Shown piece by piece: positions 575 through 11,103 of a stretch of 11,610 nucleotides of DNA. Position 1 is the first letter of the stretch. Each line of letters opens with the position of its first letter. Made by a program: the position numbers and the translations under genes. Under the pieces are notes generated by a model. The model searched no databases. It was not told the origin of the DNA and saw nothing but the letters and a program-made list of their open reading frames with translations. Source of the stretch: Sphingomonadaceae bacterium (GTDB lineage Bacteria; Pseudomonadota; Alphaproteobacteria; Sphingomonadales; Sphingomonadaceae); NCBI GenBank assembly GCA_020446665.1, contig JAGREF010000208.1, forward strand, positions 1 through 11,610. The letters are read 5' to 3'.

Positions 575-711
575 GTCGAATCTCTCCCAAGCTGACGCAA
601 ACATCGTGTTTTTTGCGACTCTAACCGCTAAATGCGAAATTGAAAGGATAAATATTTGCGCATTTCACGGTTTGCGATATGTCTGATGGAGAAATATCGG
701 GAGAAACCGCA
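575..711. promoter_or_regulatory. Divergent promoter region between the partial SDR and the BVMO, with TGCG/CGCA boxes
   Basis: This 137-bp AT-richer gap must hold promoters for both flanking genes. It carries several TTGCG/CGCAA boxes: TGACGCAA at 593-600, TTTTGCGA at 611-618, TTTGCGCA at 655-662 and TTTGCGAT at 671-678. CGCAAA (596-601) and TTTGCG (612-617) form a 6-bp inverted repeat with a 10-base spacer. AAATGCG (630-636) and CGCATTT (659-665) form a 7-bp inverted repeat with a 22-base spacer, the same distance as between the TGCG and CGCA cores of the stronger site at 2678-2709. No convincing -35/-10 pair could be assigned. Operator function is inferred only from recurrence. Confidence 0.35.
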
Positions 712-2160
712 ATGTCAGCAACGCGATTTGCGATCATTGGTGCTGGCATGTCCGGCATTTTGGCCGCGATCAAGCTGCGGCAGGCCGGGCATGACCATGT
801 CACAGTCTATGAAAAGGCCGACCGGATCGGGGGCACATGGCGTGACAATGTCTATCCCGGGCTGAGCTGCGATGTCCCGGCGCATAATTACAGCTTTTCC
901 TTTGCTCTGAACCCGGAATGGAGTGGGTACCACGCCTCCGGCCCAGAGATTCAGGCCTATTTTGAAAAGGTGGTCGATGATTTCGGGATCAGGCCGCTGA
1001 TCCGTTTCAACAGCGAAATCACTGCCGCCCGGTGGGACGGAACCCGCTGGCAGCTGGAATTTGCAGACGGAACCCATACTGAAGCAGAGGTTGTGATCGC
1101 AGCCACCGGCGTGCTCCACCACCCCAAGATTCCCGATATTCCGGGGCTGGAGAGCTTTGCGGGCAAGGCCATGCATACTGCGCGCTGGGAACCGGAACTG
1201 GACCTGTCTGGCAAGCGCATCGGGATTATCGGCAGCGGGTCAACCGGGGTGCAGATGACCACAAAACTGGGGCTGGATGGCCATCAGATCGTCAATTTCC
1301 AGCGCTCCCCGCAATGGATCATGCCGATCCCGGATTACGAATATAGCGAAGAGGAGCTGGAGAATTTCCGCAACAATCCCGGCGCCATAGAGGCTCTGCG
1401 TAACGACGATTTCTACTGGAACGGGGTCTATCGCTTCAATGAAGGGCTGGTGAATCCGGATTCCGACGCGATGCAGGAAATCGAGACCTATTGCCTGCAG
1501 AATCTGGAATCGGTCACCGATCCGGTGCTGCGCGAGAAATTGCGCCCCGATTATCGTGCCGCCTGCAAGCGACTGATCTATTCCAGCCACTATTACGAGG
1601 CTGCGCAATTGCCCAATGTCGAAACTGTTGTGTGTGGAATCGACACTGTCGAACCGGGTGGCATCAGAGACAGGGAAGGCACTTTCCACGAACTGGATAT
1701 CCTCGCTCTGGCAACGGGTTACCATGCAGATCGCTTCATGCGGCCCATGGTGGTTGAGGGCACAGATGGTATCGATCTGGAGACCGCATGGGCGACGCGG
1801 TGCAGCGCCTATATGGCCATATCCATCCCGCATTTCCCCAATCTGTTCATGCTCAATGGCCCGACTTCGCCGGTTGGCAATTTCTCCCTGATCGAAGTGG
1901 CGGAGATCCAGTGGACTTATGTGGAGCAGCTCATCCGGCCCATTGCAGCTGGCAATGCGACTGCCGTTGTCGCCAGTGACAGCGCCTTTGCAGCCTATGA
2001 GGACAAACGCATCGCAGCCGCCCGCGGAACGATTTTCGCCAGTGGCTGCACCAGCTGGTATCTCGACGCGGAAGGGGTACCGATGACCTGGCCCTGGTCT
2101 TATCAGGATTTTGAAAAGGCTATGGAAACGCCTGAGTGGGAGGCCTATCAGGTCAGCTGA
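712..2160 (+). CDS. Baeyer-Villiger monooxygenase (class B flavin monooxygenase)
   Basis: FAD- and NADPH-dependent enzyme that inserts one oxygen atom next to a ketone, giving an ester or lactone; cytosolic. The 482-residue protein has the FAD Rossmann motif GAGMSG at residues 10-15, then GGTW (40-43) followed by YPGLSCDVPAHNYSFSF, typical of type I BVMOs. The family fingerprint FxGxxxHxxxW is present as FAGKAMHTARW at 149-159, directly before the NADPH motif GSGSTG (174-179). LATGY, NGPTSPVGN and the C-terminal GCTSWYLD motif also fit the family. Length is slightly short for cyclohexanone monooxygenases (about 540) but normal for this branch. I chose the ATG at 712 because GGGAG (699-703) lies 8 bases upstream; the in-frame ATG at 679 has no ribosome-binding site and would add 11 unconserved residues. 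It converges on the SnoaL-like gene with 12 bp between stops. Substrate is unknown; a cyclic or aryl ketone is likely. Confidence 0.95.
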   Translation: MSATRFAIIGAGMSGILAAIKLRQAGHDHVTVYEKADRIGGTWRDNVYPGLSCDVPAHNYSFSFALNPEWSGYHASGPEIQAYFEKVVDDFGIRPLIRFNSEITAARWDGTRWQLEFADGTHTEAEVVIAATGVLHHPKIPDIPGLESFAGKAMHTARWEPELDLSGKRIGIIGSGSTGVQMTTKLGLDGHQIVNFQRSPQWIMPIPDYEYSEEELENFRNNPGAIEALRNDDFYWNGVYRFNEGLVNPDSDAMQEIETYCLQNLESVTDPVLREKLRPDYRAACKRLIYSSHYYEAAQLPNVETVVCGIDTVEPGGIRDREGTFHELDILALATGYHADRFMRPMVVEGTDGIDLETAWATRCSAYMAISIPHFPNLFMLNGPTSPVGNFSLIEVAEIQWTYVEQLIRPIAAGNATAVVASDSAFAAYEDKRIAAARGTIFASGCTSWYLDAEGVPMTWPWSYQDFEKAMETPEWEAYQVS

Positions 2161-2172
2161 TCGCGGCGCACT

Positions 2173-2664
2173 TCAGCCAAAGCTCTGCGGTGCTTCGCCC
2201 ATCACCTGCACCAGCGCATTGCCGGCCCCGTCCACTGAATGGATCAGGCAGCTTTTTCGGCTGGAAGCGCTTTGCGCAATCCACCAGCGGCCTTCGCGCA
2301 GGACGTAAATATCCTCATATTCCACCCCCATCTGCGTGAGCGTGCCCTGCCCCAGATTGATGTTGTGAAAATAGAGCGGCCACCAGCCGCGCGCCTGTTC
2401 GACAGTGTCGAATTCAACAACACCCGTCCCGCCCTGATGAATGTCGAAAATGCCGGGCGCACAACCCAGCTCGCGATAGATGGCAATGAAGCTGTCGCGA
2501 TCATCAAAATCAGGGAACCCGTCAAAGCGGATTTTGGCATCGGGCAGAAAGCAATCGCGCATCGTGTCGGGATCTTTCGCATCGGCCGCGCGGAGATAGC
2601 GCATCTTGAGATCCCGGATCGCCCGGTCTGCTTCGATTCTTGCGATTCTTTGCTCAATATCCAT
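2173..2664 (-). CDS. SnoaL-like (NTF2 superfamily) protein
   Basis: Small 163-residue protein of the SnoaL-like alpha+beta barrel fold (SnoaL_4 type). The family includes dehydratases (scytalone dehydratase), isomerases, and the hydroxysteroid dehydratase Hsh2 of bile-acid-degrading Sphingobium. Evidence is the N-terminal helix region (EQRIARIEADRAIRDLKMRYLR broken by AADAKD at 27-31), then FLPDAKIRFDG at 39-49, a His in IFDIHQGG (His76), and the C-terminal strands YEDIYVLREGRWWIAQS at 116-132. I chose the ATG at 2664, preceded by GAGG about 7 bases upstream; an in-frame start at 2709 would read through the inverted repeat in the promoter and adds a basic tail that does not fit the family. 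It is divergent from the SDR at 2733, with 68 bp between starts. A dehydratase or isomerase role is inferred from fold and context; many relatives have no known reaction. Confidence 0.82.
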   Translation of the reverse strand: MDIEQRIARIEADRAIRDLKMRYLRAADAKDPDTMRDCFLPDAKIRFDGFPDFDDRDSFIAIYRELGCAPGIFDIHQGGTGVVEFDTVEQARGWWPLYFHNINLGQGTLTQMGVEYEDIYVLREGRWWIAQSASSRKSCLIHSVDGAGNALVQVMGEAPQSFG

Positions 2665-2677
2665 TTTCAACCTCGCT

Positions 2678-2709
2678 TTGCGTAACTGAAATGATAGAGT
2701 GTTACGCAA
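2678..2709. promoter_or_regulatory. Perfect 9-bp inverted repeat, candidate operator in the divergent SnoaL/SDR promoter
   Basis: TTGCGTAAC at 2678-2686 and GTTACGCAA at 2701-2709 are exact reverse complements with a 14-base spacer. The repeat sits in the middle of the 68-bp gap between two divergent starts (2664 minus, 2733 plus), so one bound dimer could control both. Between the arms lies a minus-strand TATCAT (2691-2696) that could be the -10 of the SnoaL-like gene. A related site with the same 14-base spacer occurs at 9006-9037. The repeat is directly visible; the operator role is inferred. Confidence 0.55.
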
Positions 2710-2732: not shown

Positions 2733-3476
2733 ATGCGTTTTTCTGGCAAACGGGCCATCGTCACCGGGGCAGCATCGGGCATCGGCCGCGCCACGGCTCA
2801 GCGGCTGGCAAGCGAAGGCGCCGCGCTGGTGATCGCAGACGTCAACGAGGCGGGGCTGGCAGAGACGCTGGCCAGCCTTGATGGCGATCACCGCGCCGTG
2901 CCCTTTGATGCGAGCAATGTGGCAAGCTGCCATGCGCTGGTTGCAGATGCGACATCGACGGGGCCGCTGGATGTGCTGTGCAATATCGCCGGGATGCTCG
3001 ACTGGGGGCCGACCGCCAGTTTCGAGGAAGCACGCTTCAACCGGCTGCTGCAGATCAATCTGGTGGGTGTGTTTGCCATGTGCCGGGCGGCGATCCCGCA
3101 TTTGCTGCCGAGCAGGGGCAACATCGTCAACATGGCCTCCACCGCTGCGCTGGATGGCATCGCCTATTCCGCGGCCTATACTGCCGCGAAACATGGTGTG
3201 CTGGGGCTGACCCGCAGTCTGGCGGTCGAATATGCCGCACAGGGCGTGCGCGTGAACGCCGTCTGCCCCGGCCAGGTCGATACGCCGATGGGCAATCAGG
3301 CCCCGCCCGAAGGCGATGTGGACTGGTCCATCGTGATGCGCTCCGCGCCCAAGCTGGAAAATGGCATCTGCCAGCCGGAAGATATTGCCAGCATGGTCGC
3401 CTATCTCGCCAGCACTGACGCTGCCAAGATCACCGGCAGCGCCTTTACCGTCGATGGCGGGCAGTTAGTCGGATAA
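2733..3476 (+). CDS. Short-chain dehydrogenase/reductase, classical, probably NAD-dependent
   Basis: Classical SDR of 247 residues, likely oxidising a secondary alcohol to a ketone or the reverse. Motifs are TGAASGIG (11-18), Asp36 in VIADV at the end of the second strand (usually marks NAD(H) rather than NADP(H)), CNIAG in place of NNAG (83-87), catalytic Asn109, Ser136 and YTAAK (Tyr149, Lys153), CPGQVDTPM and the C-terminal TVDGGQLVG. The catalytic tetrad is complete. I chose the ATG at 2733 because GGAAGAGGAG lies just upstream (2715-2724); an upstream in-frame start at 2640 would lie in the neighbouring gene and its promoter. The 3' end overlaps the convergent esterase gene by 12 bp. If it acts with the BVMO, it could supply the ketone; that is inference. 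Confidence 0.93.
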   Translation: MRFSGKRAIVTGAASGIGRATAQRLASEGAALVIADVNEAGLAETLASLDGDHRAVPFDASNVASCHALVADATSTGPLDVLCNIAGMLDWGPTASFEEARFNRLLQINLVGVFAMCRAAIPHLLPSRGNIVNMASTAALDGIAYSAAYTAAKHGVLGLTRSLAVEYAAQGVRVNAVCPGQVDTPMGNQAPPEGDVDWSIVMRSAPKLENGICQPEDIASMVAYLASTDAAKITGSAFTVDGGQLVG

Positions 3477-4394
3477 AGCCGCACGCAGATTGGCACCGCC
3501 GCGCTCGATCCATTCCAGCGCGGCGGGCACCATCTGGAACATCGAGAAGAAGCCGTGGATCATCCCCGGTGCGCAAGCCGCGTCCACCGCCACGCCTTGC
3601 TCCGCCAGCCGCACGGCATAGCGATCCCCTTCGTCGCGTAGCGGATCATATTCAGCCGTGATAACTGTCGCCGGGGCAAGGCCAGACAGGTCGGGCGTGC
3701 CCAGAATATCGGCCAGCGGCGCATCCTCGATACCACCCGCATAATGATCCCAGAACCAGCGCATGCTTGCTTTGCTGAGGAAATACTCGCCGCCGCCATT
3801 GGCCACATAGGATGGCGTGGTGAAATCGCGCGCGGTTACCGGATAGATCAGCAATTGATGGCGTAGCGCAGGCCCGCCCCGATCACGCACCTGCAGTGCC
3901 GTAACAGCGGCCAGATTACCCCCGGCACTGTCCCCCGCCACGGCCAGACGCGACGGGTCGATCCCCAATTGCGTCCCGTTTTCCACGACCCAACACAGCG
4001 CATCATGACAATCATCCGCCGCCGCCGGATAGCGATGCTCTGGCGCAAGCCGATAATCGAGCGCCAGCAATGCTACTCCGCTCGCCCGTGCCAGCGCGCG
4101 GCAACTGGCATCATGCGTGTCGAGATTGCCCAGCACCCAGCCCCCGCCATGGAAGAAAAGAGTGAGCGGCGGTGCTTCCCCTGCCCCTTCCGGAATATAG
4201 AGCCGCGCCGCCAGCGAGCGCCCAGCCAAGGGGATCGCAACATCCTCCACCCGGGCCATGGCGATGGGCTCCCCCGGGAAAATCATCGCATCATAGGCGG
4301 CACGCACTTGCTGCGCGGTGGAATTCTCGAAATCAATCGGCGGTGCCTCGGCCATGGCGGCCAGCATTTGTGCGACCTGCGGGTTAAGTGTCAT
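3465..4394 (-). CDS. Alpha/beta hydrolase, hormone-sensitive-lipase-type esterase
   Basis: Carboxylester hydrolase of the HSL (bacterial family IV) esterases, 309 residues, probably cytosolic since no signal peptide is visible. It shows the oxyanion-hole motif HGGG at 82-85, the nucleophile motif GDSAGG at 154-159 with Ser156, the acid Asp250 in EYDPLRDEG, and the base His280 in MIHGFF. The layout and length match EST2-like esterases of about 310 residues almost position for position. AGGGGAA precedes the ATG by about 6 bases. It lies 21 bp downstream of the SDR-like gene (4416-5180) and is probably cotranscribed with it; its end overlaps the plus-strand SDR by 12 bp. An esterase beside a BVMO fits hydrolysis of the ester or lactone formed, a known pairing in cyclic ketone degradation; here it is inference. 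Confidence 0.93.
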   Translation of the reverse strand: MTLNPQVAQMLAAMAEAPPIDFENSTAQQVRAAYDAMIFPGEPIAMARVEDVAIPLAGRSLAARLYIPEGAGEAPPLTLFFHGGGWVLGNLDTHDASCRALARASGVALLALDYRLAPEHRYPAAADDCHDALCWVVENGTQLGIDPSRLAVAGDSAGGNLAAVTALQVRDRGGPALRHQLLIYPVTARDFTTPSYVANGGGEYFLSKASMRWFWDHYAGGIEDAPLADILGTPDLSGLAPATVITAEYDPLRDEGDRYAVRLAEQGVAVDAACAPGMIHGFFSMFQMVPAALEWIERGGANLRAALSD

Positions 4395-4415: not shown

Positions 4416-5180
4416 TCAAATTCCATAACCACCGGCCACGGCGATCTGTTGCCCTGTAACATAGGCAGATTTGTCCGACAGCAACCAACTGACCGCATGG
4501 CCAACCTCTTCCGCCTGCCCCCAGCGCTTGATCGCCAGCGCTTTCAACGTTTCTTCCACCCAGCCATCGGGGAACTGGCCCTGCTCCATCAATTCGTGGA
4601 ACATGCCCGCATCAATCACGCCGACCAGCACGGAATTGGCGCGGATGCCATGGCGCCCTTCCTCGCGCGCAATCCCTTTGACCAGCGCTTCATTGGCCGC
4701 CTTGGGCACAACCGACAGGCCATCGCGATCAGGCCAGCGCAGATGACCGGCAGAGCCGAGATGGACAATCGCCCCGCCTCCGTTCCGCTTCATCGCAGGC
4801 AATACGGCGCGTAATGCCCGAAAGAAGCCGCTGGTCTCTATGTCGAGCGAGCGTTGCCATTCCTCATCGCTGACCTGCCCCATGAAATGCTGCTGCACCA
4901 GCGGCCCGGCAGCCCAGACCAGCCCGCTGATCCGGCCATGCGTGGCAAGCGCTTCAGCAATGATGCCTGCCGCGCCATCGGGGGTGGAGACATCGCCCCG
5001 ATGCACGCTGGCCCCCTGACCGATCTCAGCCGCCAGTTGCTCGGCCATGTCACGCTTGCGGTTGCAGACCAGCGCGAGGGGCATCCCATCCAGTGCCAGC
5101 ACGCGGGTAATGGCAGAGCCGATCCCGCCACTGGCCCCGAACACAATCACGCAACCACCGCCATTTGCGTTATCAGACAT
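4416..5180 (-). CDS. SDR-fold protein lacking the catalytic tyrosine
   Basis: 254-residue protein with the SDR Rossmann fold: FGASGGIG at 14-21, NRKR at 40-43 (basic, suggesting NADP(H)), WAAG at 89-92 where NNAG is usual, HLGSAG with Ser143, and a C-terminal VTGQQIAVAGGYGI. At the YxxxK position the sequence reads SVVPK (156-160): the lysine is kept but Tyr is replaced by Ser. The catalytic Asn position reads Glu (IET around 114-116). The normal tetrad is therefore half missing, so ordinary dehydrogenase activity is doubtful; it may be a divergent reductase, an isomerase or lyase, or a partner protein. The ATG at 5180 has AAGGGAT about 6 bases upstream; an ATG at 5204 would place that site inside the gene. 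First gene of a probable two-gene operon with the esterase; divergent from the Coq4-like gene. Confidence 0.88.
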   Translation of the reverse strand: MSDNANGGGCVIVFGASGGIGSAITRVLALDGMPLALVCNRKRDMAEQLAAEIGQGASVHRGDVSTPDGAAGIIAEALATHGRISGLVWAAGPLVQQHFMGQVSDEEWQRSLDIETSGFFRALRAVLPAMKRNGGGAIVHLGSAGHLRWPDRDGLSVVPKAANEALVKGIAREEGRHGIRANSVLVGVIDAGMFHELMEQGQFPDGWVEETLKALAIKRWGQAEEVGHAVSWLLSDKSAYVTGQQIAVAGGYGI

Positions 5181-5198
5181 CACAATCCCTTCGCATTT
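5163..5198. promoter_or_regulatory. Candidate TGCG-N22-CGCA inverted repeat over the start of the SDR-like gene
   Basis: ATTTGCG (5163-5169) and CGCATTT (5192-5198) match in inverted orientation except at one outer position, with a 22-base spacer between the TGCG and CGCA cores, the same as at 2678-2709 and 630-665. The site covers the ATG (5178-5180) and ribosome-binding site of the minus-strand gene, so a bound protein would sit over the translation start. Short arms in GC-rich DNA can recur by chance, so support is weak. Confidence 0.2.
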
Positions 5199-5206
5199 CC
5201 ACATTC

Positions 5207-5247: not shown

Positions 5248-5274
5248 GAAATGCAAAATGAGAGGATGCAGGCG

Positions 5275-5823
5275 ATGGATGATATTCCCTATCTCGCGCG
5301 CGGGGTGGCGTTGCTGGGCACCGATTCCTCCGTGCTGATCTCTTCTTCCAAATATCTCAATGATCCACGCCTGCGTGACTGGATCGCCAAGATTGCGCTG
5401 CGGCGCAACGGGCCGGATTATCCGCCTGCTGCGGAGACGCATGATTTCGAACACATACTGACCGGCGGCGGGTTCAATTACATGGGCGAGCTGATCCCCT
5501 ATTGGTTTCGCCTCGGCACGATCGACAAGTTCATCGCCAACAAGGAACTGGCAGGCGAAATGAACGCGATGGGGATTCTGGGCACCATGCGTTATGTCAT
5601 CCGCACTGTGCTGCATTACCCGCAAGTGTGGGGCACAGCGCTGCAATGCATGGAACAGGGCATGGCCATTGCCCGTCAGTCAGACGCATTCTGGATGGCG
5701 AAGATGGAAGATTACTGGGACCTGCCGCTGGACCAAGCCCGCGCCGCGCTGGGTGTGCGCGGGACAGTTGATCTCGACACGCATGAAGCCGGTGCCATCT
5801 GGGCAGATGTGGAGCGGGCATGA
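5275..5823 (+). CDS. Coq4-like protein
   Basis: 182-residue protein of the Coq4 family, recognised by the zinc-binding signature HDxxH-x11-E: His56, Asp57, His60 and Glu72 in HDFEHILTGG followed by MGE. The C-terminal DLPLDQARAALGV (149-161) also resembles the end of Coq4 proteins. Coq4 acts in ubiquinone synthesis in mitochondria, where it scaffolds the complex and has been linked to oxidative decarboxylation of the C1 carbon of the quinone precursor ring. Here the gene sits in an apparent catabolic cluster and overlaps the amidohydrolase by 4 bp (ATGA), so the two are probably made together and may act on the same small molecule; that role is inference. There is no signal peptide or clear membrane segment. 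I chose the ATG at 5275, 8 bases after GAGAGGA (5260-5266); the ATG at 5266 overlaps that site. Confidence 0.75.
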   Translation: MDDIPYLARGVALLGTDSSVLISSSKYLNDPRLRDWIAKIALRRNGPDYPPAAETHDFEHILTGGGFNYMGELIPYWFRLGTIDKFIANKELAGEMNAMGILGTMRYVIRTVLHYPQVWGTALQCMEQGMAIARQSDAFWMAKMEDYWDLPLDQARAALGVRGTVDLDTHEAGAIWADVERA

Positions 5824-7538
5824 GCGATTTTGACCTGATCATTCGCGGCGGCACAATCGCTGACGGAACCGGCGGCGATTTGCTCGAGGGCGACCTTGCC
5901 ATTTCAGGCGGGCGCATTGCCGCCATAGGCGAAGTGTCCGGCAAAGGCGCGGAAGAGATCGACGCCAAGGGGCGGATCGTCACCCCCGGCTTTGTCGATG
6001 TGCATACCCACTATGATGGTCAGGCGATCTGGTCGGACGTGCTCGATCCATCCTCTGCCCATGGCGTGACGACGGCGGTGATGGGCAATTGCGGGGTCGG
6101 CTTTGCTCCTTGCCGTGCGGAGGATCACGATCTGCTGATCCGCGTGATGGAGGGGGTTGAGGACATCCCCGGCGTGGTGATGGCGGACGGCCTGCCATGG
6201 AACTGGCAGAGCTTTCCCGAATATCTCGACCGTGTGGCCGCGGGCAAACGCGATATCGACGTTGCCGCCTATCTGCCGCACAGCCCATTGCGGGTCTTTG
6301 CCATGGGCGAGCGCGGCGCGGCGCAGGAACCGGCGACGGAAGACGACCTCGCGCTGATGCGCCAGCTCGCGCGGGAAGCGGTGGAAGCGGGTGCGCTCGG
6401 CTTTGCCACATCGCGCCTGTCCATCCACAAGACCGCCGATGGCGGCAGCATTCCCAGCTTCGAAGCGGATGTGCGTGAACTGACCGAGATCTGCCACGGC
6501 GTCGCCGAGGGTGGCGGCGGAACCTTCCAGATCGTGCTTGATGCTTTTCGCCGGTGGGATGTGGAATATCGCTTTGTCGAAGAAGTGACCAGGGCAACCG
6601 GCCTTGCGGGAACCTTTACGCTGGCATCCGGCAATGACGGCGATAGTGGCTGGCGCGAAGTTCTCGACCTGCTGGATAGGTCCAACGCCGCCGGACAGCA
6701 TGTGAACGCGCAGGTCATGCCACGCCCGATCGGGCTGATCGCCGGGCTGGAGCTGACCGTCCATCCCTTCGTCCTGTGCCCCAGCTGGGCGAAGATCGCA
6801 GACCTGCCGCTGGATCAGAAACTCTCCGCCATGCGCGATCCGGACTTGCGAGAAGCGCTGCTGACAGAGAATTTCACTGAGGGCCATCCCTTCAACGCGC
6901 TGGGTCGCAATTGGGAATGGATGTTCCCGCTGAATGATCCGCCAGACTATGCCCCGCCCAAATCCTGCAGCATCGCCGATCAGGCCCGCGCGCGCGGATG
7001 CAGTCCGCAGGAAGTCGCCTATGACCGTTTGCTGGAAACCGGCGGCAAGGGCTTTTTCATGGTGGCGCTGGGCAATTATGAAGGGGCCACGCTACAAGGC
7101 GCGCATCAGATGCTCAACCACTCGCATTGCGTGCCCGCATTGGGCGATGGCGGCGCGCATTATGGTGCGATCTGCGATGCGAGCTATTCTACTTACTTGC
7201 TGAGCGAATTCGTGCGCGGGCCCAACCGCGAAGGCTTGTCCATCCCGCTGGCTGAGGCCGTGCATATGCTCTCGGCCAAGGCCGCGCGTGCTGTCGGGCT
7301 GGCGGATCGCGGTGTTTTGAGCGTTGGAGCAAAGGCAGACGTCAATGTGATCGACCTCGACCGGCTGCAGCTGCATTGCCCGGAAATCGTTCACGATCTG
7401 CCCGCCGGGGGGCGCCGCCTGACGCAACGTGCAACCGGCTATGATGCGACCATTGTTTCGGGCGCAGTGATCCGGCGAAACGGGCAGCTGACCGGAGCGA
7501 AGCCGGGGCAACTCGTCAGGGGTGCGCGAGCGACCTAA
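5820..7538 (+). CDS. D-aminoacylase-like metal-dependent amidohydrolase
   Basis: 572-residue member of the amidohydrolase superfamily closest in style to N-acyl-D-amino-acid deacylases. The N-terminal beta domain (DLIIRGGTIADGTG, residues 5-18) leads into the metal motif VDVHTHYDGQ with His62 and His64. NCGVGFAP follows with Cys91 (the bridging Cys of D-aminoacylases), and LGDGGAH at 441-447 holds the likely catalytic Asp443. The C-terminal GAKADVNVIDLDRL is the usual return to the beta domain. The His-containing motifs normally giving the other metal ligands in the middle of D-aminoacylases (HxR and SHxK) are not evident: the corresponding strands read TFQIVLDAFRR and TFTLASGNDG. Substrate may therefore differ from N-acyl-D-amino acids; a C-N or other hydrolysable bond is possible. 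The start ATG overlaps the Coq4-like stop, with GGAG 5 bases upstream. The stop overlaps the convergent EthD gene by 4 bp. Confidence 0.85.
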   Translation: MSDFDLIIRGGTIADGTGGDLLEGDLAISGGRIAAIGEVSGKGAEEIDAKGRIVTPGFVDVHTHYDGQAIWSDVLDPSSAHGVTTAVMGNCGVGFAPCRAEDHDLLIRVMEGVEDIPGVVMADGLPWNWQSFPEYLDRVAAGKRDIDVAAYLPHSPLRVFAMGERGAAQEPATEDDLALMRQLAREAVEAGALGFATSRLSIHKTADGGSIPSFEADVRELTEICHGVAEGGGGTFQIVLDAFRRWDVEYRFVEEVTRATGLAGTFTLASGNDGDSGWREVLDLLDRSNAAGQHVNAQVMPRPIGLIAGLELTVHPFVLCPSWAKIADLPLDQKLSAMRDPDLREALLTENFTEGHPFNALGRNWEWMFPLNDPPDYAPPKSCSIADQARARGCSPQEVAYDRLLETGGKGFFMVALGNYEGATLQGAHQMLNHSHCVPALGDGGAHYGAICDASYSTYLLSEFVRGPNREGLSIPLAEAVHMLSAKAARAVGLADRGVLSVGAKADVNVIDLDRLQLHCPEIVHDLPAGGRRLTQRATGYDATIVSGAVIRRNGQLTGAKPGQLVRGARAT

Positions 7539-8215
7539 GCAAAATCATACTGGCTGGTAGCAAACACGTCGATTGTCCCCGGCGTGATGAAGCGTGCGCA
7601 GCTTTCCATCATCGCGGCCAGATTGCGCTCAAACTTTGCCTTGTCGCCAGCGGCATCGAAAAAGGTCAGCGGGTCAGTCATCGCGGCAGGCGGGAAACAT
7701 TCCTCGACTACCGCGACAAAGGGCGCGGCGCCGTCCGCGAGTGGCTCCACCACCAGATTCTGCACATATTCAAAGTTTGACTGCGTATCGATCGCCACCT
7801 GCGTATGGCCATCGCGCCAGATGCGCCGCCAGTCCGCCCATGCCCTGCCCTCAGGCAGAGTCAGAAACGCCATTTGCGCAAAGCCATGTGTGCGTTCACC
7901 CGCCATTGGTGGATGAAGTGTGTTGGCGATGATGGTCGATTCCGTGACCAGCCATTGCCCTGTCACTGTGCCGTAACGGGCCAGCACTGTGTCGGTCGCC
8001 CCCAGCCGCGCCGGATTGGCGCTGGGCAGCCAGAATTGCACCACGGCATCGGGCAGGCTGGCCCCGCTTTGCTGCACCAGCCCGGCTGCAGGCGCCACCG
8101 CTTCATCGCGCAGATTGATCCGCACTGCCGTTGCACCAGCCTCACGCAGGCCTGCCGCCAGCGCCGCAGGATCAGGCATTTGCTCGCCGCATAGCGTGGC
8201 GATGATCTTTTCCAT
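7535..8215 (-). CDS. EthD-domain protein
   Basis: 226-residue protein with an EthD-type ferredoxin-like (dimeric alpha-beta barrel) domain in its second half. EthD proteins are small accessory or enzymatic proteins in oxidation and degradation pathways, named from the ethyl tert-butyl ether cluster; most have no assigned reaction. The C-terminal half (about 110-226) has AQMAFLTLPEG, the helix WADWRRIWRDGHTQVAID (128-143) with the family's conserved His in DGHTQ, YVQNLVVEPL, VEECFPPAAMTD and a MMESCARFI helix. The first 100 residues have a similar strand-helix-strand pattern (KIIATLCG, helix 17-27, VRINLRDEAV, AVVQFWLP) and may be a second, degenerate copy. It lies 9 bp after the SDR at 8225-8989 and is probably in its operon; the AGG ribosome-binding site lies next to the SDR stop codon. 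Confidence 0.82.
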   Translation of the reverse strand: MEKIIATLCGEQMPDPAALAAGLREAGATAVRINLRDEAVAPAAGLVQQSGASLPDAVVQFWLPSANPARLGATDTVLARYGTVTGQWLVTESTIIANTLHPPMAGERTHGFAQMAFLTLPEGRAWADWRRIWRDGHTQVAIDTQSNFEYVQNLVVEPLADGAAPFVAVVEECFPPAAMTDPLTFFDAAGDKAKFERNLAAMMESCARFITPGTIDVFATSQYDFA

Positions 8216-8224
8216 GCCGCCGCC

Positions 8225-8989
8225 TCAGTCGAAATTGGCCTGCCCGCCATCGAGCGGGATCGTCGCGCCGGTGAGATAGGCCATTTCGGGCTGACACAAG
8301 GCCACCACTGCCCGGCCAATATCCTCTTCGCATTCGCCCACGCGGCGCAGCGGGATGGTGCGGAAAAATGCCTCGGCCTCTTCGGGATTATGCTCCATCC
8401 ATTTGACCAGACCGGGGCTTTTCGCATGCGGCGCGATGGACAGGACGCGGATATTGTCACCACCCCATTCCGACGCTGCCGCGCGGGTCAGCGGGCGGAT
8501 CGCCTGCTTGACTGAACCATAGGCACCATAGCCTGCCATGTCCCAGCGCACCCCGGCGCTGGAGACGAGGTTGAAGATCGTTCCCCCGCCGCGCTGCGCC
8601 ATGATCGGGCGGACCAGCTTCATCAGCCGCAACACTGCCAGCGGGCCGGATTCGAAACCGCGCAGATAGGCTTCGTCGCTGACCTTCTCCAGCGGGCCAT
8701 TGGGCACTTGCTGGGCATTATTGACGAGGATGTCGATCCCGCCAAAGCGTTCTGTCGCCTCAGCCACAGCGCGCTCAAGGTCTGCGGCGCTGCACACATC
8801 GCCGGCCATGGCCAGCGCCTCGCTGCCGCGCGCTTCCACCAATTCCTGTGTTGCGACCAATTTGCTCTCAGTCCGCCCGAACAGAGCGAGCTTCACCCCC
8901 GCCGCCGCCAAAGCGAGCGCGATTCCCTGTCCGACACCTTGACCACCCCCAGTCACCAGCGCGATCTTGCCCGAAAGTTGCGATTCCAT
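8225..8989 (-). CDS. Short-chain dehydrogenase/reductase, classical, probably NADP-dependent
   Basis: 254-residue SDR with TGGGQGVG at 13-20, Arg39 after the second strand (FGRTESK, favours NADP(H)), NNAQ at 90-93, catalytic Ser143 or Ser144 in LVSSAG, and YGSVK giving Tyr157 and Lys161. The C-terminal LTGATIPLDGGQ is typical of the family. The usual catalytic Asn position seems to be Glu113 (FESGPL), as in the SDR-like gene at 4416-5180, but here Tyr and Lys are kept, so activity is plausible. The start at 8989 follows GGGATTGAGG; an in-frame ATG at 9037 is less likely because it would run through the promoter region and adds unconserved residues. First gene of a two-gene operon with the EthD protein, and divergent from the Old Yellow Enzyme gene. 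Reaction is alcohol/ketone interconversion by family; substrate unknown. Confidence 0.92.
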   Translation of the reverse strand: MESQLSGKIALVTGGGQGVGQGIALALAAAGVKLALFGRTESKLVATQELVEARGSEALAMAGDVCSAADLERAVAEATERFGGIDILVNNAQQVPNGPLEKVSDEAYLRGFESGPLAVLRLMKLVRPIMAQRGGGTIFNLVSSAGVRWDMAGYGAYGSVKQAIRPLTRAAASEWGGDNIRVLSIAPHAKSPGLVKWMEHNPEEAEAFFRTIPLRRVGECEEDIGRAVVALCQPEMAYLTGATIPLDGGQANFD

Positions 8990-9005
8990 AGCCTCAATCC
9001 CATAA

Positions 9006-9038
9006 ATTCGTAGTGAATATGCAAATATATTACGCAAT
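9006..9038. promoter_or_regulatory. Candidate operator related to the 2678-2709 repeat
   Basis: ATTACGCAAT at 9029-9038 repeats the right arm of the site at 2701-2710 with one change (GTTACGCAAT there). Exactly 14 bases upstream of it, ATTCGTAGT (9006-9014) is a degenerate left arm sharing the CGTA core with TTGCGTAAC. The site ends 3 bases before a TTGACA element and lies in the 108-bp gap between divergent starts at 8989 and 9098. The shared spacing and right arm suggest the same regulator; the left arm is weak. Confidence 0.35.
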
Positions 9039-9071: not shown

Positions 9072-9097
9072 GCGTGAAGAGAGAGGAGTCCCAGCGC

Positions 9098-10330
9098 GTG
9101 TCTCAATTTGAAAAGGCCTACAGCTCGCTCACCATCGGGCCGCTTACCCTGCGCAACCGCTTTATCAAGGCGGCGACCAATGAAGGTATGGCCAAGGGCG
9201 GCATCGTCAGCAAGGGGCTGGCACGGTTTCACGAACGCATGGCCGAAGGCGGGGCGGCGTTGTCCACCGTCGCCTATTGTGCCACCTCACGCGATGGACG
9301 GACCTTTATTGATCAGGCCGTGCTGGATGATGATGCACTGGCGGATTTCCGCGCGCTGACCGATGCTGTGCACCGCCATGGCGGGGCGGCCAGCGCGCAG
9401 ATCACCCATGCGGGCAGCTTCACTTTTCTGGACAAGGATACTCTGCAAACCAGCAAGCCGCTGTCCTCCTCGGGCGGGTTCAACAAGGTTGGCGTGATGT
9501 CGGGCCGCTTCTTCAAGAAGGCCATGAACCGCGACGAGATGGACGCGATGGCGGCAGAATTCGTGACCGCCGCGATCAAGGCGCGCGAAGCAGGGTTTGA
9601 CGCGGTCGAGCTGCATATGGGCCATGGCTATCTGCTCAGCCAGTTTGTCTCGCCCATTTATAACAAGCGGCGCGATGCCTATGGCGGCACGATTGAAAAG
9701 CGCATGAATTTCCCCAGCGAAGTGCTGCGCAAGGTGCTGGATGCGGTGGGCAAGGATCTGGCCGTGCTGGTCAAATATTCCATGACTGACGGGCCAGGCA
9801 AAGGGAACACGATCAGCGAAGGCGTGGAAGTTGCCAAGCGACTGCAGGCTGATGGCGCGCATATGGCGGTGCTGTCCAACGGGCTGAATGTCGAATCGAT
9901 TCAGGCGATGTTTGGCTGTCCGCTGCCCTCCTCCGGGTCGAAACCGGCCAATCCGATCATCGGACTGGGCATGAAGATCCAGGAAATGACCGCCCCGCCG
10001 CCGATTGAATTCCGCGAAAACTATCTGCGCGAGCTGGCGCAGCAAGTGCGCGCTGCGGTGGACATGCCGCTCGCCTATCTCGGCGGAATTCAGTCGCATG
10101 AGGGTGTGGAACAGGCGATGGGTGACGGTTTCGAAGCCATCGCCATGGGCCGTGCGCTGGTGCATGATCCACATTTCGTGAACCGGCTGCGCGAAGGCAG
10201 TATCCAGACATCGGGCTGCACCGCCTGCAATCGCTGCGTGACCATGATGTATTCTCCGGGCGGGACCAGCTGCATTGAATCGCCGGACAAACCCGACCCC
10301 AAACTCAACACTGAAAGGGCCGCTGCATGA
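9098..10330 (+). CDS. NADH:flavin oxidoreductase, Old Yellow Enzyme family, with C-terminal Cys cluster
   Basis: FMN-dependent ene-reductase-type enzyme of 410 residues; reduces C=C bonds conjugated to a carbonyl or CoA thioester, or acts as a related dehydrogenase. The TIM barrel shows the N-terminal IGPLTLRNRF (13-22), ITHAGS (102-107), ELHMGHGYLLSQFVSP (171-186) with substrate-binding His173 and His176, NKRRDAYGG (189-197), LGGI and AIAMGRALVHDP near the phosphate-binding end. At the C terminus Cys374, Cys377, Cys380 and Cys392 lie where 2,4-dienoyl-CoA reductase (FadH) and trimethylamine dehydrogenase carry their 4Fe-4S cysteines, but spaced C-x2-C-x2-C-x11-C rather than C-x2-C-x3-C-x11-C. 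The second NAD/FAD domain of FadH is absent. I chose the GTG at 9098, 9 bases after AGGAG (9084-9088); an upstream GTG at 9074 has no ribosome-binding site. First of three plus-strand genes; its stop overlaps the next start by 4 bp (ATGA). Confidence 0.92.
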   Translation: MSQFEKAYSSLTIGPLTLRNRFIKAATNEGMAKGGIVSKGLARFHERMAEGGAALSTVAYCATSRDGRTFIDQAVLDDDALADFRALTDAVHRHGGAASAQITHAGSFTFLDKDTLQTSKPLSSSGGFNKVGVMSGRFFKKAMNRDEMDAMAAEFVTAAIKAREAGFDAVELHMGHGYLLSQFVSPIYNKRRDAYGGTIEKRMNFPSEVLRKVLDAVGKDLAVLVKYSMTDGPGKGNTISEGVEVAKRLQADGAHMAVLSNGLNVESIQAMFGCPLPSSGSKPANPIIGLGMKIQEMTAPPPIEFRENYLRELAQQVRAAVDMPLAYLGGIQSHEGVEQAMGDGFEAIAMGRALVHDPHFVNRLREGSIQTSGCTACNRCVTMMYSPGGTSCIESPDKPDPKLNTERAAA

Positions 10331-11103
10331 GCGTGAAGGATATGGAAGGCCGCGTTGCCATCGTCACCGGGGGCAGCGACGGGATCGGCCGCGCCACCTC
10401 GCAGAAACTCGCCGCACGCGGCGCGCATGTGGTGGTTCTGGCCCGTGGCATGGAAAAGCTGGAGGCGACCCGCAATGCCATTCACGCCGCAGGGGGCTCG
10501 GTTGAAATCCATTCCATCGACTTGTCCGATGCAGAAGCCTATGCCGCGCTAGTGACGCAGATTGCCGATGCCCATGGGCGGCTCGACATGCTGGTGAACA
10601 ATGCGATGAGCGTGCATTATGCCCCGCTCGACAAGCTCTCGCTGGAGCATTGGCGCAAGGATTTTGCCGTCAATTCCGACGCAGTCTTTGCCGGGACCAA
10701 GGCCGCGATTGCTGCCATGCGCAAGAGCGGCGGGGGCAGCATCGTCAATGTCAGCTCTACCACCGCCATTCGCTCTGCGCCCTATATGACCAGCTATTCC
10801 GCGAGCAAGGCGGCAATGATCCAATTCACTTCGGTTGCCGCAATGGAAGTCGCGCGCGAGAATATCCGCCTCAATTGCGTCGTCCCCGGGCAGGTCCAGA
10901 CCGCGGGGAACGAGGATTTCGCGCGCAAGGCACCTGAAATTGCAGCCAAGACGGCAGATGCCATTCCCATGGGGCGCGGCGGCGATCCGGACGAATTGGC
11001 GGAATCGATCATCTTCCTGCTGTCTGATGCGGCCAGCTATATCACCGGCATCGCGCTGCCGGTGGATGGCGGCAAATCCGCGCAGCTTTATCTGCCAAGC
11101 TAA
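10327..11103 (+). CDS. Short-chain dehydrogenase/reductase, classical, probably NADP-dependent
   Basis: 258-residue classical SDR with a full active site: TGGSDGIG at 14-21, Arg40 after the second strand (NADP(H)-type), NNAM at 91-94, Asn116, Ser143 or Ser144 in NVSS, and YSASK giving Tyr157 and Lys161. VVPGQVQTAG and ITGIALPVDGG close the fold. The ATG overlaps the stop of the Old Yellow Enzyme gene (ATGA), with AAAGGG about 8 bases upstream, so the two are translationally coupled. The next gene starts 11 bp after its stop. Placement between an ene-reductase-type enzyme and a KstD-like dehydrogenase suggests oxidation or reduction of a hydroxyl/ketone on the same ring system; that is inference. 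It is the fifth SDR-fold gene in the window, and all five are clearly different sequences. Confidence 0.94.
   Translation: MSVKDMEGRVAIVTGGSDGIGRATSQKLAARGAHVVVLARGMEKLEATRNAIHAAGGSVEIHSIDLSDAEAYAALVTQIADAHGRLDMLVNNAMSVHYAPLDKLSLEHWRKDFAVNSDAVFAGTKAAIAAMRKSGGGSIVNVSSTTAIRSAPYMTSYSASKAAMIQFTSVAAMEVARENIRLNCVVPGQVQTAGNEDFARKAPEIAAKTADAIPMGRGGDPDELAESIIFLLSDAASYITGIALPVDGGKSAQLYLPS

Follow-up and report, generated by a model that had tools for sequence, protein, structure and literature searches.

Gene content of the window

The stretch of DNA analysed here (the window) is contig C125 of genome G000, with 11,610 bases and 13 genes (Table 1). The genome is a 2.37-Mb assembly in 448 contigs, estimated to be 77.5 % complete and 4.2 % contaminated. 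Ten of the 13 window proteins were scanned against Pfam and NCBIfam, the latter with the best 25 matches considered, and the other three are all SDR-like by eye. The scans bear out the surroundings described in a sequence-only reading of this DNA, namely a Baeyer-Villiger-type monooxygenase, SDRs and a KstD-like protein, and add an old-yellow-enzyme-type oxidoreductase (OYE). They also agree with the statement that ubiquinone genes are absent nearby: no such family was found in the ten scanned proteins, except for a sub-threshold Coq4 match of the Coq4-like ORF itself. In relatives such as locus L030, the orthologue of the first SDR gene of the window lies directly upstream of the Coq4-like gene. 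A viral scan gave two weak matches only (54 residues at 34 %).

Table 1. Features of the 11,610-base window, with the basis of each assignment.
Feature	Position	Strand	Basis or remark
SDR, cut by contig end	2..604	-	orthologue in L030 is adh_short
FMO/Baeyer-Villiger-type flavin monooxygenase	679..2160	+	Pfam/NCBIfam scans
SnoaL-like (NTF2-fold) protein	2173..2709	-	PF13577, 82.3 bits
SDR, by eye	2733..3476	+	outside the scans; ATG picked by eye, longest ORF from 2640; tblastn query
Hormone-sensitive-lipase-type esterase	3465..4394	-	PF07859, 247.6 bits; NF058653, 357.8 vs cut-off 350
SDR, divergent from Coq4L	4416..5204	-	Pfam/NCBIfam scans
Likely ribosome-binding site GAGAGGA (putative)	5260..5266	+	precedes ATG at 5275
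Coq4-like paralogue gene (Coq4L), 182 aa as assembled, internally deleted	5275..5823	+	ORF and alignment with relatives; PF05019 below cut-off
Deletion junction GAG/ACG, in frame	5434..5439	+	92 codons of relatives missing
Metal-site motif HD-xx-H-x11-E, codons of H56, D57, H60, E72	5440..5490	+	translation
Amidohydro_3 hydrolase (AH), 572 aa	5820..7538	+	PF07969, 150.9 bits vs cut-off 29.7; ATGA overlap with Coq4L
EthD-domain protein	7535..8215	-	PF07110, 22.9 bits vs cut-off 22
SDR	8225..9037	-	Pfam scan
Old-yellow-enzyme-type flavin oxidoreductase (OYE)	9074..10330	+	PF00724, 188.7 bits
SDR, by eye	10327..11103	+	outside the scans; 4-bp overlap with OYE gene; tblastn matches
KstD-like FAD_binding_2 flavoprotein, cut by contig end	11115..11609	+	PF00890, 71.7 bits; NCBIfam KstD-type matches below cut-off

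The Coq4-like ORF carries an internal deletion

The 182-aa ORF that had been taken for a Coq4-like protein was confirmed, its HDFEH-x11-E motif reproduces the claimed Coq4 signature exactly, and the next gene's ATG at 5820 overlaps its stop codon by 4 bp, as had been noticed. The Coq4 profile PF05019, which had been suggested as a check, gave 12.8 bits (E 0.075), under the cut-off of 22.9, and this match covers only positions 124-216 of the 221 of the profile. A PDB sequence search with the ORF returned no match. In a search of 5.8 billion proteins, 496 match it at E <= 1e-3; given these matches and the kept motif, the likeness to Coq4 is more than chance.

Alignment revealed one clean gap: in the window protein PPAAE joins THDFEH directly, where relatives carry 92 residues between the two. 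The missing piece is present in all 11 close relatives compared (92 codons in ten, 91 by motif count in L027), and the junction, at 5436/5437, keeps the frame. The database relatives among the best 120 of the 496 matches are all 271-286 aa long. Moreover, within a set of Coq4L loci drawn from named genomes (the best 80 of 138, 79 of which were kept), 78 of 79 match over nearly their whole length, and the remaining one (L071) runs off the end of its contig.

The loss amounts to approximately one third of the protein, or some two fifths of its Coq4 domain; by alignment and structure, several helices and the N-terminal portion of the helix that bears the motif fall within the gap. The complete Coq4 helical domain is present in the full-length relative P0005; the window ORF, with 92 residues missing, does not make it up. 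The suggested structural comparison with Alr8543 (PDB 6e12) gave a divided answer: one model in the Coq4L group has the Coq4 fold, whereas the window ORF aligns with 120 of the 210 residues of 6e12. A Coq4L copy with an in-frame TGA inside the match was seen in another genome (G184:C5:208178-208984) and is possibly a second decaying copy.

Coq4L relatives form a clade apart from canonical-type Coq4

Among four full-length relatives scanned with PF05019, L030 (29.1 bits), L077 (30.5 bits) and L075 (24.6 bits) pass, and L054 of strain Chol11 (21.6 bits) lies just under 22.9. The L030 gene comes from Sphingorhabdus contaminans and spans 10001-10822 of its locus. A profile of the group, searched against the PDB, finds 3msq (E 3.9e-18) and 6e12 (E 2e-7). 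All 106 Coq4-like ORFs with 200 aa or more, a set that counts a few ORFs of one genome twice, have the motif, and an alignment of 56 sequences reaching down to 27 % identity shows no variation at its four residues. In a 109-row tree with long branches and unsettled bootstrap, the Coq4-like proteins encoded in degradation clusters split from canonical-type Coq4 at 100/100, and the window ORF groups with L025-L029 (99/92). The canonical-type reference consisted of five Coq4s that are the strongest PF05019 matches, namely a copy on contig C219 of the same genome and L110-L113.

The distribution of Coq4L is patchy, as it was found in 4 of 59 relatives and in 17 of 199 family genomes (own genome counted), with up to 10 matches in one genome at E <= 1e-20. 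Named carriers include Novosphingobium, Sphingobium, Sphingomonas, Croceicoccus, Sphingorhabdus and one Thauera bin, and the copies on sphingomonad plasmids are mostly annotated as 'Coq4 family protein' or 'hypothetical protein'. Five genomes (G212, G086, G157, G108 and G012) hold eight to ten Coq4-like matches each, down to about 25-30 % identity, which amounts to a large paralogue expansion.

Compared with known members of the Coq4 family (PF05019; Alr8543 6e12, 3msq), Coq4L thus differs by its separate clade, its place in degradation clusters and its several copies per genome, and the window copy differs further by the loss within its domain. The proposal of a Coq4 repurposed for catabolism is partly supported for the family, by fold, clade and degradation clusters, but it cannot be credited to the window copy, whose domain is about two fifths lost and which is probably not a working enzyme. 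Coq4L is a little-studied Coq4 side branch of bacterial degradation clusters, often with an adjacent hydrolase gene. The open-licence full-text literature held no paper joining Coq4 with sphingomonads, Novosphingobium or bile salt degradation, none joining Coq4 with UbiD and alphaproteobacteria, and none using the term 'Coq4 family protein'; for Coq4 together with amidohydrolase and steroid, it listed one paper on the COQ metabolon and one on mouse heart cells.

Neighbours of Coq4L: the hydrolase AH and AtuA

Against NCBIfam, none of the best 25 of 61 matches of AH reaches its cut-off (top match 68.5 bits vs 371). The label 'D-aminoacylase-like' holds only at the level of the family, since D-aminoacylase and N-acyl-D-glutamate deacylase (1m7j, 3gip) belong to the same Amidohydro_3 family, and the HxH and the NCG cysteine of AH align with 1m7j. 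At least 98 % of 49 sequences have H62, H64, C91 and D443 of AH, among which is one Asp of the D-aminoacylase site. Histidines between residues 155 and 446 are conserved in part: none reaches 95 % there, the values being 69 % for H203, 61 % for H315 and 55 % for H356 in the same 49 sequences. This is the region into which the D-aminoacylase ligands H220 and H250 would presumably fall, and because no 95 % histidine is found where they are expected, we would not call AH a D-aminoacylase.

We then surveyed the pairing with the amidohydrolase in relatives, using an HMM built from the window AH and its matches. An adjacent AH-type gene was found in 36 of 79 Coq4L loci but not in the other 43, three of which have short flanks, so that the pairing is conserved in part only. 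All 36 share the strand of the main Coq4L gene, which they follow in 26 loci and precede in 10, and the two gene orders occur on separate tree branches. Regarding four annotated plasmid copies, an amidohydrolase is adjacent in S. herbicidovorans and EMRT-2 and none is in pNL2, where the Coq4L gene is SARO_RS19420, and ES2-1. Seen from the hydrolase, 40 of 43 AH ORFs in the ORF sets lie next to a Coq4-like gene; once overlapping ORFs are removed the count is 33 of 42, whereas 2000 shuffles gave 4.5 on average and never more than 11, related loci not being independent. AH relatives are also common without Coq4L: with up to six candidates of each genome scored, they turned up in 109 of 199 genomes at E <= 1e-40, and none of the seven closest there (71-75 % identical; five of the seven neighbourhoods read) was seen beside Coq4L. 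The AH partner is optional for Coq4L, not obligatory.

AtuA (PF07287) is the second frequent neighbour, present in 31 of 79 loci and within 100 bp of Coq4L in 17. It is an alternative neighbour in relatives and is absent from the window: L030, L034 and L041 have an AtuA gene between AH and EthD (12528-14306 in L030), whereas in the window the AH and EthD genes overlap by 4 bp (7535-7538). A protein search for AtuA was positive in G075 and G208 but negative in G034 and in the incomplete genome of the window (G000). Apart from AtuA, a dihydrodipicolinate-synthase-type aldolase was seen by eye near Coq4L in eight clustered loci, with a median gap of 66 bp (10959-11891 in L098), and in EMRT-2 an annotated aldolase of this type lies about 6 kb from Coq4L.

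The genome holds a separate canonical-type Coq4

A search for a separate Coq4 in the genome, which had also been suggested, found one on contig C219 (L001), with 283 aa and 43.5-44.6 bits against PF05019. Because of this copy, the objection that the window ORF might be the only Coq4 of its genome does not apply. The C219 protein shares the motif with the window ORF but is 26 % identical to it in the alignment, adjoins SerB-like and nitroreductase-like ORFs (by eye) and groups with the canonical type in the tree; its ubiquinone role is putative. A canonical-type Coq4 was found in 26 of 59 family genomes. The genome also has a UbiD, on contig C257. Across family genomes G000-G034, searches gave a UbiD (PF01977) match in 4 of 35, a PF05019 match in 18 of 35 and neither in 17 of 35, which leaves the C1 decarboxylation of ubiquinone unaccounted for in these 17; given that PF05019 misses some members (e.g., in G013), this is a lead only.

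Discussion

We read the window ORF as a copy of a catabolic Coq4 paralogue that has lost an internal piece and probably no longer works, and whose intact relatives would have the role proposed below; we give this reading a probability of about 0.6. The deletion removes most of the helices that precede the motif, together with the N-terminal portion of the helix bearing it, and for this reason little or no binding of metal and substrate is expected of the window copy. Since the frame and the codon pattern of the remainder still look conserved, the loss would be recent. The earlier observation is thus real and wrong in one decisive detail, the protein being incomplete.

A deletion that arose in the assembly or in the sampled population is a less probable account, though one to be taken seriously, in which the organism has a working, intact Coq4L of ~274 aa. 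It suits a fragmented, incomplete and partly contaminated metagenome-assembled genome, it suits the full length of the listed relatives and of 78 of the 79 loci, and the window also lacks the AtuA gene that L030, L034 and L041 have between AH and EthD. In L025 and L027, moreover, a short imperfect repeat is common to both flanks of the missing piece (AGA.GCATG in L025); however, some nine imperfect bases are too short to mislead a usual assembler. Nor did the missing segment turn up elsewhere: its best match in the window (E 0.081) is not convincing, and a full-length relative used as query against the genome found the two flanking pieces only, with no other contig matching the segment. The AH of this locus (protein P0122) has 100 % matches in the protein database on two contigs, the longer of 101,855 bp, yet neither the 120 listed of 496 nor the 120 listed of 327 database hits include a nearly identical Coq4L, whether intact or deleted, an absence that decides nothing because a C-terminal fragment could score below those listed.

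The internally deleted copy leaves the role of its intact relatives to be considered. The function of Coq4 has been clarified only in recent years, and there are two differing accounts: in the available part of PMC7615680, COQ4 is reported as a plain Zn-dependent C1 decarboxylase acting via this motif, whereas a one-step oxidative decarboxylation by human COQ4 is cited in the available part of PMC11495197. Intact Coq4L would bind a metal ion at HDxxH-x11-E and would remove, perhaps oxidatively, a carboxyl from a ring or enol acid that may arise during the degradation of a hydrophobic polycyclic substrate; the adjacent Amidohydro_3 hydrolase would act one step before or after. Given that the motif is invariant and the setting degradative, such a metal-dependent, perhaps oxidative, decarboxylation would be the likeliest job of intact Coq4L.

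Alternatively, intact Coq4L might be a non-enzyme that binds hydrophobic intermediates or organises their handling as a scaffold, as has long been proposed for Coq4. The Alr8543 structure was solved with oleic acid and magnesium (6e12 title), and the available part of PMC11495197 cites work that gives Coq4 an organising role. The invariance of the motif in all aligned sequences and Coq4-like ORFs would, however, be unusual for a pure scaffold, and we consider this role rather unlikely. More doubtful still is the idea of a 182-aa protein that functions as a minimal Coq4L, with motif and C-terminal helices kept and the hydrolase perhaps as partner. Frame, start, 4-bp overlap and motif are all retained, most differences from relatives are at third codon positions, and the C-terminal half of the predicted model is confident; but the gap is seen neither in the 120 listed of 496 database hits nor in the 79 loci, and several helices and part of the motif helix are gone. 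That Coq4L is the ubiquinone Coq4 of these bacteria is very improbable: fold and motif are the same and UbiD was not found in 31 of the 35 family genomes searched, so that another C1 decarboxylase may be needed, yet the genomic context speaks against a ubiquinone role, Coq4L being patchy, multi-copy and placed in degradation clusters, and the genome of the window holding both a canonical-type Coq4 and a UbiD.

As for the substrate on which a decarboxylating Coq4L would act, a look for core steroid-degradation genes (9,10-seco pathway) beside Coq4L showed that the ES2-1 plasmid has FadD3, a steroid delta-isomerase and dmpG near Coq4L, none of which was recognised among the ten scanned window proteins, and locus L054 belongs to the bile-salt degrader Chol11, for which cluster tables are published (PMC8399759, seen in part). 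A steroid pathway as sole substrate source, considered in view of these two contexts, is not claimed. The Chol11 gene adjoins TauD and an FAD-linked oxidase, and the neighbourhoods in EMRT-2, S. herbicidovorans and pNL2 differ; for these reasons we claim no substrate. The available part of PMC12882949 describes a cholate-induced amidohydrolase in Caenibius tardaugens, and neither Coq4 nor amidohydrolase occurs in PMC8540908. According to the available part of PMC12175502, some proteins of the EthD and NTF2 types are known as hydroxysteroid dehydratases in Chol11. Since one plasmid copy sits in a steroid-type cluster and such dehydratases are known, polycyclic isoprenoids may be the substrates of Coq4L, a fair guess and no more. 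We advance only tentatively, and at less than even odds, that in sphingomonads and their kin Coq4 has given rise to a family of degradation enzymes, in which a module of Coq4L with Amidohydro_3 or AtuA would decarboxylate, perhaps oxidatively, polycyclic-isoprenoid acids.

Because the window copy has lost about two fifths of the domain, further work should use an intact relative. A Coq4 clade outside ubiquinone synthesis and linked to the degradation of small molecules would give soluble systems and a gene-deletion phenotype for testing Coq4 chemistry and, if the degradation-module reading is true, this chemistry would reach soluble, non-membrane substrates.
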